Position numbers and translations under genes: made by a program
Source: Candidatus Nanopelagicales bacterium
GTDB lineage: Bacteria > Actinomycetota > Actinomycetes > S36-B12 > CAIYMF01
Length of the DNA: 32,945 bases
Direction: 5' to 3'
Assembly: GCA_025456015.1 (NCBI GenBank)
Contig: JALOLK010000047.1
Location: 1 to 32,945, forward strand
The notes under the pieces: generated by a model
What the model was told of the DNA's origin: nothing
Seen by the model: only the letters and a program-made list of their open reading frames with translations
Databases searched by the model: none
Part shown: in pieces, positions 17,204 to 27,068 of the stretch
Layout of the letters: each line of letters begins with the position of its first letter
How positions within the stretch are numbered: the stretch's first letter is position 1

Positions 17204-17276
17204 TAGCCCCGACGGGATTCGAACCCGCGCTACCGCCTTGAGAGGGCGGCGTGCTAGGCCGCTACACAACGGGGCC
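17204..17276 (-). tRNA. tRNA-Glu (CUC anticodon)
   Basis: On the minus strand, 73 nt fold as a cloverleaf. The acceptor is GGCCCCG with CGGGGCU (terminal G-U pair), the anticodon stem is CCGCC/GGCGG, the loop CUCUCAA reads CUC, and the T-arm is GCGGGTTCGAATCCCG. The discriminator is A, and CCA is not encoded. It follows tRNA-Gln by 27 nt on the same transcript. Confidence 0.95.
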
Positions 17277-17303
17277 GTGATCGGGCGGGCCCCCACACAC
17301 CTG

Positions 17304-17375
17304 CTGGGGTACCAGGACTCGAACCTAGACTAGCTGAACCAGAATCAGCCGGGCTGCCAATTACCCCATACCCCA
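17304..17375 (-). tRNA. tRNA-Gln (CUG anticodon)
   Basis: On the minus strand, 72 nt fold as a cloverleaf. The acceptor is TGGGGTA with TACCCCA, the anticodon arm is GCTGA-TTCTGGT-TCAGC, giving anticodon CUG, and the T-arm contains GGTTCGAGTCC. The discriminator is G, and CCA is not encoded. It is the first gene of a two-tRNA unit. Confidence 0.95.
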
Positions 17376-20094: not shown

Positions 20095-20859
20095 CTACAC
20101 GACCGGGTTGACCAGCGTGCCGATCCCGGCGACCGTCACGGCGACCTCGTCGCCGGACACCAGCGGCCCGACGCCGGCCGGGGTGCCGGTCAGGATCACG
20201 TCGCCGGGCAGCAGGGTCATCGCCGCCGAGACGTACGCGATGAGCGCGGGGACCGCGTGGATCAGCGTCGCCGTCGAGGCCCGCTGCACGCTCACGCCGT
20301 TGAGCTCGCACTCCACCTCGACGTCGGCCGGGTCCAGCTCGGTCTCGATCCAGGGCCCGAGCGGGCAGAACGTGTCGAAGCCCTTCGCCCGCGCCCACTG
20401 GCCGTCGGCGCGCTGCAGGTCCCGGGCGGTCACGTCGTTGGCGCAGGTGTACCCCAGCACCACGTCGAGCGCCTGCTCCTCGGGCACCCGCCGGCAGACC
20501 CGGCCGATGACCACGGCGAGCTCGGCCTCGTGGTGCACCTCGGTGGACTCCGGTGGCAGCACGATCGGGTCGTCCGGGCCGATCACCGCGGTCGGCGGCT
20601 TGAGGAACACCAGGGGCCGCTCCGGGGCCGCCCCGCCCATCTCGGCGGCGTGGTCGGCGTAGTTCTTCCCGATGCCGATGACCTTGCCCGGCACCACCGG
20701 CGTGAGCAGCCGCAGCGTGTCGAGGTCGCGGATCTCGCCGGTGGTCACCAGCGGCTCGCCGGGGGCCAGGAACGGATGGCCCGGCAGCTCGAGCACCTCG
20801 GTGCCCTCCACGACGCCGTACCGGGCGCCGCCCTCCCAGGCGTAGCGGGCGATCCTCAT
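20095..20859 (-). CDS. Fumarylacetoacetate hydrolase family protein
   Basis: A 254-aa FAH-superfamily protein (hydrolase, decarboxylase or isomerase acting on 2-oxo acids). It has [16 protein letters not shown], the metal-binding [13 protein letters not shown] (two of the three acidic ligands), [26 protein letters not shown] and [13 protein letters not shown], the full family pattern. The substrate cannot be read from sequence; related actinobacterial enzymes decarboxylate oxaloacetate or hydrolyse acylpyruvates. Its ATG overlaps the cimA stop (ATGA), so it is translationally coupled to citramalate synthase, which suggests a link to keto-acid metabolism or repair. gltX follows with its own promoter. 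Confidence 0.88.
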
Positions 20860-22502
20860 GCGCCGACCCCCACGGGCGCGGCGCTCGTCGCGGCGGAGGG
20901 CGACTCCGGAGGGGCGACCCCGGCCCGCAGCAGGCCGTAGTCGATCGCGTCGACGATCGCCAGCCACGAGGCCACGATCACGTTCTCGTGCACGCCGACC
21001 GTGGACCACGAGCCATCCGCGTCGTTGGTCTCGATGAGCACCCGGGTGACGGCGTCGGTGCCGGTGGCGCCCGGCACGATGCGCACCTTGTAGTCGACCA
21101 GCTGCAGCTCGGCGACCTCGGGGTAGATCTGGCTCAGCGCCCCGCGCAGCGCGGTGTCCAGGGCGTTCACGGGACCGTTGCCCTCCCCCACGGTCACGAT
21201 CCGCTGGCCGCCGGCGTGCACCTTCACGATGGCCTCGGAGCCGTGCCCGTCGCCGTTCACCTGGGGGGACACGATCGTGCGCCAGGACTCCACCTCGAAG
21301 TAGCGCCGGCGCTCGCCGGGCAGCTCGTCGCGCATGAGCAGCTCGAAGGAGGCGTCGGCGGCCTCGTAGGTCCAGCCCGCAGCCTCACGCGCCTTCACCG
21401 ACTCGACCACCCGGGCCAGTGCCGCCGGGTTGCCCGCGATGTCCACGCCGAGCTCGCGGCCCTTGAGCTCGACCGTGGCCCGCCCGGCCATCTCCGTGAC
21501 GAGGATCCGGGTGTCGTTGCCGACCAGGCGCGGGTCGATGTGGCTGTAGAGCGCCTCGTTGACCTTCAGCGCCGAGGCGTGCAGGCCGGCCTTGTGGGCG
21601 AAGCTGGAGACCCCGACGTAGGCCTGGTGCGTGTCCGGGGGCAGGTTGGCGATGTCGGCCAGGGCGTGGCTGATCCGCTTGGCCTCGCGCAGGTTGCCCT
21701 CGGGCAGCGCCCGGATGCCCAGCTTGAGCTCCAGGGAGGCGACCACCGAGAACAGGTCCGCGTTGCCCGTGCGCTCGCCGTAGCCGTTGGCCGTGCACTG
21801 CACGTGCGTGACGCCGGCCTCCACCGCTGCGAGGGTGTTGGCGACCGCGCAGGACGTGTCGTCCTGGCAGTGGATGCCCAGGCGCACCCCGGAGCGCGCC
21901 AGCACGTCGGTGACGACCCGGTGCATGCCCATCGGCAGCATGCCGCCGTTCGTGTCGCACAGCACCCCCACGCTGGCGCCGGCCTCGAACGCCGTCTGCA
22001 GCAGCGTGACCCCGTAGTCCGGGTCATGCCGGTAGCCGTCGAAGAAGTGCTCGCAGTCGACGAAGACCCGCCGTCCGGCGCGCACCAGGAAGTCCACGGT
22101 GTCGCGGACCATCGCCAGGTTCTCCTCGTTGGTGGTCCGCAGGGCCTCGGCGACGTGGCGCACGTCGGACTTCGCGACCAGGCACACGACCGGCGCCTGC
22201 GAGTCGAGCAGGGCCCGCACCTGGGGGTCGTCCGCCACCGCGATCCCGGGCTTGCGGGTCGCGCCGAACGCCACGAGCTGGGCGTGGCGCAGCTCGAGCT
22301 CCCCGGCCGCGGCGCGGGCGAAGAACTCGGTGTCCTTGGGCATCGCGCCGGGCCAGCCGCCCTCGATGAAGCCGACCCCCAGCTCATCGAGCAGCCGCGC
22401 CACGGCCAGCTTGTCGCTCACCGAGTACGAGATGCCCTCGCGCTGGGCGCCGTCGCGCAGCGTGGTGTCGAACACGTGGAATGCGTCGCGGTCGTGGTCC
22501 AT
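20856..22502 (-). CDS. cimA: (R)-citramalate synthase
   Basis: CimA condenses pyruvate and acetyl-CoA to citramalate, opening the threonine-independent route to 2-ketobutyrate and isoleucine. The 548-aa protein is a DRE-TIM metallolyase: [11 protein letters not shown] (13-23), CDTNGG (182-187), metal-binding HCQDD (211-215), [11 protein letters not shown] (240-250). A LeuA-type regulatory domain follows (about 404-525, with [16 protein letters not shown]), where isoleucine feedback is expected. The [10 protein letters not shown] start and overall size fit CimA rather than LeuA. The ATG at 22502 has GGAGG 11 nt upstream, just past the terminator of a leader region with an Ile-rich leader peptide. 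The last about 20 residues ([12 protein letters not shown]) are a low-complexity tail. Confidence 0.93.
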
Positions 22503-22518
22503 CCGGTGCCGTTCCTCC

Positions 22519-22552
22519 AACAAGAAACCCCCTCGCCCGAGGGCGGAGGGGG
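22519..22552 (-). terminator. Attenuator terminator in the cimA leader
   Basis: In the minus-strand RNA, CCCCCTCCGCCC pairs with GGGCGAGGGGG (22541-22552 with 22528-22538; one bulge, 2-nt loop), followed by the T-rich TTTCTTGTT (22519-22527). It is the clearest intrinsic terminator in the window and lies between the leader peptide stop (22571) and the cimA ATG (22502). Confidence 0.85.
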
Positions 22553-22570
22553 TCAGCGCGCTGGCCTGGT

Positions 22571-22615
22571 TCAGGCGGCAGCGCGCTTGCCAATGATGAT
22601 CGCCGGTGCGGTCAC
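22571..22615 (-). CDS. Ile-rich leader peptide of cimA
   Basis: A 14-codon frame reads (GTG) MTAPAIIIGKRAAA and stops at TGA. Three consecutive isoleucine codons (ATC ATC ATT) sit in the middle. It starts 7 nt after a -10 box and is followed by the terminator at 22519-22552. AGCGCGCT within its codons (22580-22587) can pair with AGCGCGCT at 22555-22562 just before the terminator stem, giving competing structures. Ribosome stalling at scarce Ile-tRNA should affect cimA readthrough; this matches the role of CimA as entry to isoleucine. Confidence 0.8.
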   Translation of the reverse strand: MTAPAIIIGKRAAA

Positions 22616-22622
22616 GAGCCGC

Positions 22623-22651
22623 AGTCTGCCACGCGGAGCCGGCCTCGTCAC
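22623..22651 (-). promoter_or_regulatory. Promoter of the cimA leader
   Basis: Minus-strand -35 GTGACG (22646-22651) and -10 CAGACT (22623-22628) are spaced 17 bp. The -10 ends 7 nt before the leader-peptide GTG at 22615. Confidence 0.6.
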
Positions 22652-22877: not shown

Positions 22878-24056
22878 TCAGGCGATCCGGTGCACCCAGC
22901 CGAACGGGTCCTCGGCGCGGCCGGTCTGCAGCTCCAGCAGGGCGTGGCGCAGCCGCATCGTGATCGGGCCGGGCTGGCCGTCGCCGACGGTCCAGGAGGC
23001 GGTGGCCGACTTCACTGACCCGACCGGCGTCACGACCGCGGCGGTGCCGCAGGCGAAGACCTCCGAGATCTCGCCCGAGGCGTTGCCCGCCTGCCACTGC
23101 TCGATCGAGATGCGGCCCTCCTCGGCGGGGATCCCCAAGTGCCGGGCCAGCTTGAGCAGCGAGTCCCGGGTGATCCCCGGCAGCAGCGTGCCCGTGAGCT
23201 CGGGGGTCACGAGGCGGGCCCGGTCGCCCGAGCCGTGGACGAAGACCAGGTTCATCCCGCCCATCTCCTCGACCCACCGCCGCTCGACGGCGTCGAGCCA
23301 GACGACCTGGTCGCAGCCCTGCTCGGCGGCGTGGGCCTGGGCGATGAGCGAGGCGGCGTAGTTGCCGGAGCACTTGGCCTCCCCGGTGCCCCCGGGCGCC
23401 GCCCGGGTGAACTCGGTGGACAGCCAGACGCTCACCGGCTGCACCCCGCGCGGGAAGTACGCCCCGGCCGGTGAGCCGATGAGCAGGAACGTGTAGGCGT
23501 TCGCGGGACGGACGCCCAGGCCGACCTCGGTGGCGAACTGGAAGGGCCGCAGGTACAGCGACTTCTCCGGGTCGTCGGCGATCCAGGCCGCGTCCGCGCG
23601 GACGAGCGCCTCGACCGCGCCGAGGAAGACGTCCTCGGGCAGCTCGGCCATGCCCATGCGCCGCGCGCTGCGGGCGAACCGGCGGGCGTTGGCCTCGGGT
23701 CGGAACGACATCAGCGCCCCGTCACCGTGCCGGTAGGCCTTGAGGCCCTCGAAGATCGACTGGCCGTAGTGGATGAAGATCGCCGCCGGGTCCAGCGTCA
23801 GCGGGGCGTAGTCCACCAGCTCGGGCTCGGCCCAGCCGGCACCGGCGGTCCAGTCCGCGCGAACCATGTGATCGGTGAAGTGCCGGCCGAACCCCGGGTC
23901 GGCCAGGATCGCCGCACGCTCGGCAGCGGCCCGGGTGGTGCCGCTGGTCCGGTCGGCCACCTTCGCCGCAGCGCGGTCGGTGACCGGGTAGAGGTCGATC
24001 CCGGCGCGCGCCATCTCGGCGGCGGTCGTGTACCAGCTCGTGGCGTCGGCGGACAT
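22878..24056 (-). CDS. ilvE: Branched-chain amino acid aminotransferase
   Basis: IlvE is a PLP class IV transaminase that makes valine, leucine and isoleucine from their keto acids with glutamate. The 392-aa protein has HYGQSIFEGLKAYR (96-109), the arginine-containing block SLYLRPFQFATE (166-177), PLP Lys 228 in GEAKCSGNYAASL and GTAAVVTPVGSV (337-348). I chose the ATG at 24056: a GATACT box ends 7 nt upstream and no ribosome site is clear; the longer frame to 24200 is not conserved-looking. It is on the same strand as leuB (upstream) and cimA (downstream). Confidence 0.96.
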   Translation of the reverse strand: MSADATSWYTTAAEMARAGIDLYPVTDRAAAKVADRTSGTTRAAAERAAILADPGFGRHFTDHMVRADWTAGAGWAEPELVDYAPLTLDPAAIFIHYGQSIFEGLKAYRHGDGALMSFRPEANARRFARSARRMGMAELPEDVFLGAVEALVRADAAWIADDPEKSLYLRPFQFATEVGLGVRPANAYTFLLIGSPAGAYFPRGVQPVSVWLSTEFTRAAPGGTGEAKCSGNYAASLIAQAHAAEQGCDQVVWLDAVERRWVEEMGGMNLVFVHGSGDRARLVTPELTGTLLPGITRDSLLKLARHLGIPAEEGRISIEQWQAGNASGEISEVFACGTAAVVTPVGSVKSATASWTVGDGQPGPITMRLRHALLELQTGRAEDPFGWVHRIA

Positions 24057-24135: not shown

Positions 24136-25164
24136 TCAGCCGGCGGCTGCCGCCGCCAGCGCGTCGCCGATCGCGGCGGTGGTGCGCTGCGCGGCACCAC
24201 GGCCGGCGAGGTCGGCGGCCACCGCCTGCTCGACCCGGGCGGCCGCGGCGTCGTGGCCGAGGTGGGCCAGCAGCATCGCGACGCTGAGCACGGTGGCGCT
24301 CGGGTCGGCCTTGCCCTGGCCCGCGATGTCCGGGGCCGAGCCGTGCACGGGCTCGAACATGCTGGGGTTCGTGCGGCTGGGGTCGATGTTGCCCGAGGCC
24401 GCCAGGCCGATCCCGCCGGCGATCGCGGCGCCGATGTCCGTGAGGATGTCGCCGAAGAGGTTGTCGGTCACGATCACGTCGAAGCGCTCCGGCTGGGTGA
24501 GGAAGAACATCGCCGCGGCGTCGACGTGGCAGTAGTCGGTGGTCACGTCGGGGAACTCGGCGGCGACCTCGGTGAAGGTGCGCTGCCACAGGTCGCCGGC
24601 GTGCACCAGCACGTTCGTCTTGTGCACGAGCGTGACCTTCCGGCGAGGCCGGGCCGCGGCGCGGCTGAACGCGTCGCGGACGATGCGCTCGACGCCGTGG
24701 CGGGTGTTCAGGCTCTCCTCGGTGGCGACCTCGTGGCGCGTGCCGCGCCGCAGGACGCCACCCGAGCCCACGTACGGGCCCTCGGTGCCCTCCCGGCAGA
24801 CCACCATGTCGATGTCGGCGGGGCCCTTGCCGGCCAGCGGCAGCTTCACCGGGCGCAGGTTCACGTGGTGGTCCAGCTCGAAGCGCAGCGGCAGCAGCAC
24901 GCCGCGCTCCAGCACGCCGGGCGGCACGCTGGGGTCGCCGATCGCGCCGAGCAGGATCGCGTCGTGGCCGCGCAGCTCGTCCAGCACGGACGCGGGCAGG
25001 GTCTCCCCCGTCGCGTGGTACCGCCGGGCGCCCAGGTCGTACTCGGTGGTGGCCACCGACAGGCCCGCGGCGGGGGCCACGGCCCGCAGCACCTTGAGGC
25101 CCTCGGCCACCACCTCGGTCCCGATCCCGTCGCCGGGGATCACGGCAAGTCGCAGTTGCGTCAC
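24136..25164 (-). CDS. leuB: 3-isopropylmalate dehydrogenase
   Basis: LeuB oxidatively decarboxylates 3-isopropylmalate with NAD to the leucine keto acid. The 342-aa protein has IPGDGIG (9-15), the substrate arginines in [15 protein letters not shown] (94-108), the metal aspartates in [12 protein letters not shown] (232-243) and the NAD site [12 protein letters not shown] (271-282). Start GTG 25164 gives the usual [13 protein letters not shown]-terminus. A TACGCT box ends 8 nt upstream and there is no ribosome site. The longer frame to 25248 is rejected. It is divergent from the GNAT gene and is followed by ilvE after 79 nt. Confidence 0.96.
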
Positions 25165-25172
25165 GGGGGGAC

Positions 25173-25178
25173 AGCGTA
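25173..25178 (-). promoter_or_regulatory. -10 box of leaderless leuB
   Basis: TACGCT on the minus strand is followed by 8 nt and the GTG at 25164. Confidence 0.5.
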
Positions 25179-27023: not shown

Positions 27024-27052
27024 ATGTCCAGCGTGCGCCTGCTCCTTGGTCG

Positions 27053-27068
<16 letters not shown>
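27024..27068 (+). CDS. Leu-rich leader peptide of leuA
   Basis: A 14-codon frame reads MSSVRLLLGRRGGA and stops at TGA, 92 nt before leuA. It contains three consecutive leucine codons (CTG CTC CTT). It is preceded by a -10 box at leaderless spacing and followed by competing hairpins. This is the expected layout of a ribosome-mediated attenuator that senses leucyl-tRNA and controls the first committed enzyme of leucine synthesis. Confidence 0.8.

Follow-up and report, generated by a model that had tools for sequence, protein, structure and literature searches.

We identified an ancient actinobacterial leader element upstream of cimA, the citramalate synthase gene, whose product makes pyruvate the starting point of isoleucine synthesis; the element very probably mediates Ile-tRNA-sensing, ribosome-mediated transcription attenuation of this gene. 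The element was analyzed in a 32,945-nucleotide stretch of DNA (the window), a contig from a metagenome-assembled genome of a Candidatus Nanopelagicales bacterium, and in homologous loci of other genomes. A short leader ORF, whose Ile codons lie toward its 3' end, is followed by a hairpin (P1) and, almost immediately after P1, by an intrinsic terminator hairpin (T). Comparison with related sequences confirmed that the element is real and far above chance, and the attenuation interpretation proposed in an initial annotation of this DNA is supported at the sequence level.

Organization of the cimA leader element

All parts of the element are located on the minus strand, between cimA (20856-22502, minus strand, ATG at 22502) and the upstream gene ilvE (22878-24053, minus strand), which encodes a branched-chain aminotransferase, has the same direction as cimA and is itself preceded by leuB (24136-25176). 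The cimA product belongs to the TIGR00977 equivalog family (558 bits versus the NCBIfam cut-off of 450), in agreement with the initial assignment of the downstream gene, and its closest named record comes from Candidatus Nanopelagicales isolate Prado020 (94% identity over cimA). A Shine-Dalgarno sequence of cimA, GGAGG, is found at 22514-22518 (minus strand). Elsewhere in the window, two adjoining tRNA genes were detected with Rfam (17204-17375, minus strand).

Based on the sequence and on the hexamers of relatives, an extended -10 motif, TGG-CAGACT, was assigned to positions 22623-22631 (minus strand), its hexamer occupying 22628-22623; in the window copy, 7 nt separate this hexamer from the leader start codon, and neither a -35 box nor a match to the sigma-70 consensus was found at this promoter. 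Transcription is predicted to start at or beside the leader start codon, which would make the transcript leaderless. Nearly all homologous copies have a -10-like hexamer 5-8 nt, usually 6-7 nt, upstream of the leader start (73 of 82 cimA copies and 27 of 27 ilvB copies), so that the leader is probably translated from such a leaderless transcript. With the promoter upstream of the leader, nothing in the sequence pointed to transcripts starting downstream of the terminator, which would have argued against attenuation. The leader ORF itself (22571-22615, minus strand; conserved in the family) has 14 codons, from a GTG start to a TGA stop, and encodes VTAPAIIIGKRAAA. Its putative regulatory codons, Ile-Ile-Ile (ATC ATC ATT; 22592-22600, minus strand), end 4 nt before P1. 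Both the promoter and the 14-codon leader with its Ile triplet are thus present as initially described.

Two copies of AGCGCGCT had previously been regarded as a competing pairing element. The repeat does exist, but its copies at 22587-22580 and 22562-22555 are the two arms of a single local hairpin, P1 (22555-22587, minus strand; arms AGCGCGCTG, with inner GGCC-type pairs, and CAGCGCGCT), which abuts the terminator instead of competing with it. P1 was identified by folding and compensatory changes and has a predicted stability of -23.5 kcal/mol, which none of 500 shuffled sequences reached; the leader stop codon of the window copy falls in its loop. One nucleotide further downstream begins T (22527-22553, minus strand; identified by folding and covariation), with -20.1 kcal/mol and again no equally stable sequence among 500 shuffles. 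The U-tract (TTTCTTGTTGG; 22517-22527, minus strand) that follows the terminator is imperfect in the window copy (TTTCTTGTT), and most relatives have TTTTT(T).

Conservation and covariation

The cimA gene was detected in 38 of 40 relatives, and in most of the loci that we read an ORF of 7-14 codons with Ile codons near its end was present upstream. The leader, P1 and T are kept before cimA in relatives as well as across Actinomycetes and Actinomycetota. Lack of conservation of the leader frame or of the Ile codons would have spoken against an attenuator; both turned out to be conserved, in distant as well as close relatives. Among 112 distinct cimA leaders, 106 contain two or more Ile codons, and Ile is retained even where it is non-adjacent or its context is altered, such as in VFGIVIT, VTLVISIT, VRRTGIKIR and MSRPCSILIA. 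The element also occurs in Streptomyces, one of whose cimA leaders is VLSFAMIIGSRRAGPQ.

The two stems showed clear covariation. In 34 diverse leaders, 28 cells of the P1 and T stems were changed on both sides, compared with 8.3 in shuffles; none of 500 shuffles reached 28, and the signal collapsed in slid controls. One cimA copy from another class has a wholly different P1 (GCACACACGC/GCGTGTGTGC) together with the leader MSASIIIIA. The spacing of the parts is equally constrained: the last Ile codon lies 4-6 nt from P1 in nearly all of the 34 leaders, and the P1-T junction measures 0-2 nt in every one of them, although the length of P1 ranges from 21 to 36 nt. In a larger set, the junction was 0-1 nt in 79 of 82 cimA copies and 27 of 27 ilvB copies, counted with a parser mildly biased to short junctions, and leuS and ilvA copies share this geometry. 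Hairpins abutting a terminator were found for 187 of 206 terminators with such a leader ORF versus 17 of 71 others at the same loci, a background rate taken from the retrieved loci. Throughout the family, the leader stop codon either immediately precedes P1 or falls within it.

In cimA loci without a leader, cimA usually follows ilvE directly. Four such loci belong to small-genome relatives (1.5-1.8 Mb), in which the attenuator is gone. Four public records are titled 'MAG: Bifidobacterium breve', and their cimA genes are 69-75% identical to the Nanopelagicales gene; these organism names appear to be mistaken.

The same scaffold upstream of other genes

A covariance model (R1) was built solely from cimA leaders (34 training sequences, including the window). 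R1 matched the window at 22615-22523 with an E-value of 3e-13, as expected of a training sequence, and in a sample of 297 genomes of the class it had matches in 215, representing 85 of 106 genera. Among the 80 matches in which we read the next gene, this gene was cimA in 63, ilvB in 11, ilvA in three, leuS in one and an ACT-domain-like ORF in two, the last three identities being based on ORF reading and not on a family search. Of the 20 matches that we read in genomes beyond the class, most were located before ilvB (with leader endings such as LVLIT) and one before cimA. Hence, the proposal of an attenuator dedicated to cimA could not be maintained, since ilvB, leuS and ilvA carry the same scaffold, whose geometry the window copy shares (codons about 5 nt before P1, a P1-T junction of 0-2 nt and 5-8 nt between a -10-like hexamer and the leader start).

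The amino acids encoded just before P1 change with the downstream gene. Over the 3 to 4 codons that precede P1, Ile accounts for 257 of 374 residues in cimA leaders and Leu for 17 of 19 in leuS leaders; before ilvB, Leu, Val and Ile contribute 36, 29 and 12 of 87 residues (together 77 of 87), and Ile is also among the residues before ilvA. The difference was pronounced for Ile between cimA and ilvB (Fisher p = 2e-21) and for Leu between cimA and leuS (p = 6e-15), both values being nominal because the sequences are related. This correspondence between the leader codons and the product of the gene that follows is the strongest evidence for the sensing of tRNA charging.

This codon exchange also bears on two other explanations. 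One is that the leader is translated but the identity of its codons is not the signal, with a protein, the level of translation or the general starvation state controlling the terminator. It could draw on the S. coelicolor ilvB leader, in which substitution of the candidate regulatory codons left regulation unaffected, as reported in PMC1262725. Given that the codons are swapped along with the gene and that Ile is retained at scattered positions, we consider it very improbable. The other is that T is simply the terminator of ilvE, next to an ORF that arose by chance and a promoter unconnected with either. The position and direction of ilvE would fit such an arrangement, with T lying between ilvE and cimA, but ORF, promoter, P1 and T recur jointly before cimA, ilvB, leuS and ilvA, and this conservation refutes it for practical purposes. 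Attenuation in response to Ile-tRNA is the reading retained here, and it is weakened by the S. coelicolor codon result, by the imperfect U-tract of the window and by the absence of the leader where cimA directly follows ilvE.

Several of the other genes with the scaffold deserve mention. Nine ilvA (threonine deaminase) loci, mostly from one family, have leaders such as VPQHLMIIN and VTVHEMAIT, which places the other entry into isoleucine synthesis under an Ile leader. The genome of the window also has ilvA (399.5 bits versus the cut-off of 378.75), and a search for an Ile leader before this gene found none. Six leuS (leucyl-tRNA synthetase) loci carry Leu-rich leaders, including MRSALLLT, MRRTLLLT and VTAYRLLLPEPR. 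Two loci of a single family have Ile leaders (MFALVIIM and MFTPRIII) and the scaffold before a small ACT-domain-like ORF. At one locus, the scaffold with the codons V-L-L-I stands before an apparent prephenate dehydratase gene, a target that does not match branched-chain codons.

Tests for an antiterminator

It had been noted that no antiterminator strand opposing the terminator was obvious and that the mechanism might deviate from the classical scheme. This was borne out by folding the transcript up to the terminator loop, so that the 3' arm of the terminator was absent, after removal of the part covered by the ribosome. The terminator 5' arm was sequestered in the E. coli positive controls (probability for trpL, 0.83; thrL, 1.0; leuL, weaker at 0.68). 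With P1 partly or wholly masked, 112 cimA leaders gave a median sequestration probability of only 0.01-0.08, below the 0.24-0.27 of shuffled upstream sequence, and the ilvB, leuS and ilvA copies showed no excess over shuffles. In total, pre-terminator folding detected no antiterminator strand opposing the terminator among 151 elements. Direct complementarity told the same story, as pairing of arm 2 with arm 3 or arm 4 was weaker than or equal to that in shuffles. The terminator 5' arm is thus kept free of pairing, below the shuffled expectation.

These values are difficult to reconcile with classical 1:2 / 2:3 / 3:4 attenuation, whose antiterminator would have to have been missed by folding, for instance a pseudoknot, a very weak kinetic pairing or a pairing with a different partner. 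Such a scheme is the standard logic of amino-acid operons, and PMC1262725 gives Streptomyces leuS leaders, whose elements have the same scaffold, classical antiterminators. Nevertheless, sequestration far below that of the E. coli controls, and arm 2/arm 3 complementarity below shuffles, make it improbable for the cimA family.

Two further approaches were set aside. An extension of P1 into the terminator base, in the manner of C. glutamicum, was inspected by eye in several copies, and mostly mismatches were found just outside P1. In equilibrium folding without the ribosome-covered part, the terminator stayed formed, but so did that of the E. coli trp control; the test therefore had no power and was dropped.

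Possible mechanism

In the proposed mechanism, a ribosome on the leader would pass the Ile codons and reach the stop codon when isoleucine is sufficient; the P1 5' arm would then lie under its footprint, and transcription would end at T. A shortage of charged Ile-tRNA would instead hold the ribosome at the Ile codons, and transcription would continue into cimA. To explain this final step we favor, though we would stop slightly short of calling it probable, a model in which P1 acts as an antiterminator by adjacency, sharing no bases with the terminator. While a ribosome waits on Ile, P1 would stay folded at the entrance of the ribosomal mRNA tunnel, and the intact hairpin, only 0-2 nt from T, would sterically block full closure of T in the exit channel of RNA polymerase. 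A ribosome that reaches the stop codon would melt P1, and the terminator could then close. The steric step is physical reasoning. It is consistent with the placement of the stop codon, from which a ribosome whose footprint extends about 12 nt past the A site should cover the P1 5' arm, and this placement and the 5-nt spacing argue for adjacency over the alternative below.

The alternative, which appears rather unlikely, is that P1 stacks on T and strengthens it, and that an Ile-stalled ribosome intrudes into the base of P1 and causes read-through; if the leader were not translated, both hairpins would form and transcription would stop. P1 and T are indeed compatible and fold together, and their near-zero linker permits coaxial stacking. 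At the last Ile codon, a footprint of about 12 nt beyond the A site would cover approximately the first 4-5 nt of P1. Two published observations also favor this stacking model over adjacency. In M. smegmatis, termination after gyrA is better at tandem hairpins than at a single hairpin (as cited in PMC8355165), and in C. glutamicum, loss of the ilvBNC leader start codon reduced expression by 80%, as reported in PMC11857589; the latter runs counter to adjacency, which predicts read-through of an untranslated leader. On the other hand, a ribosome at the stop codon covers the entire P1 5' arm, and stacking would then predict read-through under plentiful isoleucine unless release outpaces transcription. 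Moreover, the first Ile codon lies 11-14 nt from P1, and a ribosome waiting there would leave the hairpin free.

If P1 does act by adjacency, the scaffold might represent a phylum-wide attenuator class in which the antiterminator contains no terminator bases, the leader ribosome keeps or melts an abutting hairpin, and codon exchange sets the amino acid. We propose this generalization tentatively, as possible rather than probable; under it, the amino acid sensed would be Ile for cimA and ilvA, Leu/Val/Ile for ilvB and Leu for leuS. Whichever way P1 acts, Ile-responsive attenuation of cimA would place the threonine-independent entry into isoleucine synthesis under direct isoleucyl-tRNA sensing in much of Actinomycetota, including Streptomyces, a control described in none of the papers that we found. 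The rule of codons, 5 nt, P1, 0-2 nt and terminator spans genes and classes, so that the old puzzle of actinobacterial ilvB-type leaders without an evident antiterminator becomes cleanly testable. The swappable codons may also offer a compact candidate sensor for the engineering of amino-acid production.

Relationship to known regulatory elements

What is new here is the target gene, cimA, and the variant architecture; the kind of regulation is already known. We found no cimA or citramalate attenuator in the open-licence literature or in Rfam, in line with the initial annotation, which treated such an attenuator as not known to be described. A T-box is not indicated either, as the region had no Rfam match at the gathering threshold or at E-values up to 5, apart from unrelated weak hits.

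Actinobacterial leader peptides before ilvB, leuS, trp and leuA were predicted in 2005 (Seliverstov et al., PMC1262725), and a reannotation of S. lividans lists eight leader peptides, none of them for cimA (PMC8079986). The ilvB leaders of these studies (including ilvL of S. lividans) likewise consist of a leaderless short branched-chain ORF and a terminator before the gene, and the cimA-built model recovers actinobacterial ilvB leaders. They differ from the window element in having Leu/Val/Ile codons and ilvB as the gene, instead of Ile only and cimA. The accessible text of PMC1262725 gives no rule of an abutting hairpin for ilvB, calls its mode of regulation unclear because of the S. coelicolor substitutions and, like that of PMC8079986, mentions no cimA leader. 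The Streptomyces leuS attenuator (PMC1262725; leuL2 MRAVRLLLSEPR in PMC8079986) also has a leaderless leader and a terminator, with Leu instead of Ile; its earlier description as classical with an antiterminator was unsupported in the six copies tested here.

Experimentally supported attenuators include C. glutamicum ilvBNC (PMC11857589, PMC10272879) and M. tuberculosis ilvB1 (PMC13236596), leader-peptide systems that are the nearest relatives studied so far. The Corynebacterium ilvB-II motif, which sits before ilvB and not cimA, shares the leaderless branched-chain uORF and the order of P1 and terminator hairpin, and in ilvBNC the antiterminator and terminator hairpins are neighbors. There, however, the antiterminator shares bases with the terminator, through a GCC trinucleotide or P1-loop pairing, whereas neither a shared GCC/GGC boundary pairing nor pairing of the P1 loop with the terminator was found in cimA leaders by folding or complementarity. 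M. tuberculosis ilvB1NC likewise has a branched-chain uORF and a Rho-independent terminator, and ribosome occupancy and induction upon pathway inhibition have been reported (PMC13236596); its leader is longer (166 nt), its gene is different and a conventional antiterminator was proposed.

The regulatory codons, the terminator and the logic of ribosome position are common to the window element and the trp, thr and leu attenuators of E. coli. As in trp-type systems, a leader ORF with codons of the pathway is present and a terminator lies between leader and gene. In the E. coli leaders an antiterminator forms by 2:3 pairing, which stood out in trpL and thrL and was weaker in leuL, but no antiterminator sequestering the terminator strand was found in the cimA family when these three served as controls.

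The LEU element, a leuA pseudoknot with a Leu leader and no terminator, was considered and rejected for the cimA region, which has an Ile leader and a terminator. Upstream of leuA (27161) in the same window, a leaderless-looking ORF encoding MSSVRLLLGRRGGA, with three Leu codons, was observed at 27024-27068 (plus strand). A -10-like TACCCT lies 7 nt 5' of this ORF and no terminator was apparent by reading alone; the ORF is probably the known actinobacterial LEU element.
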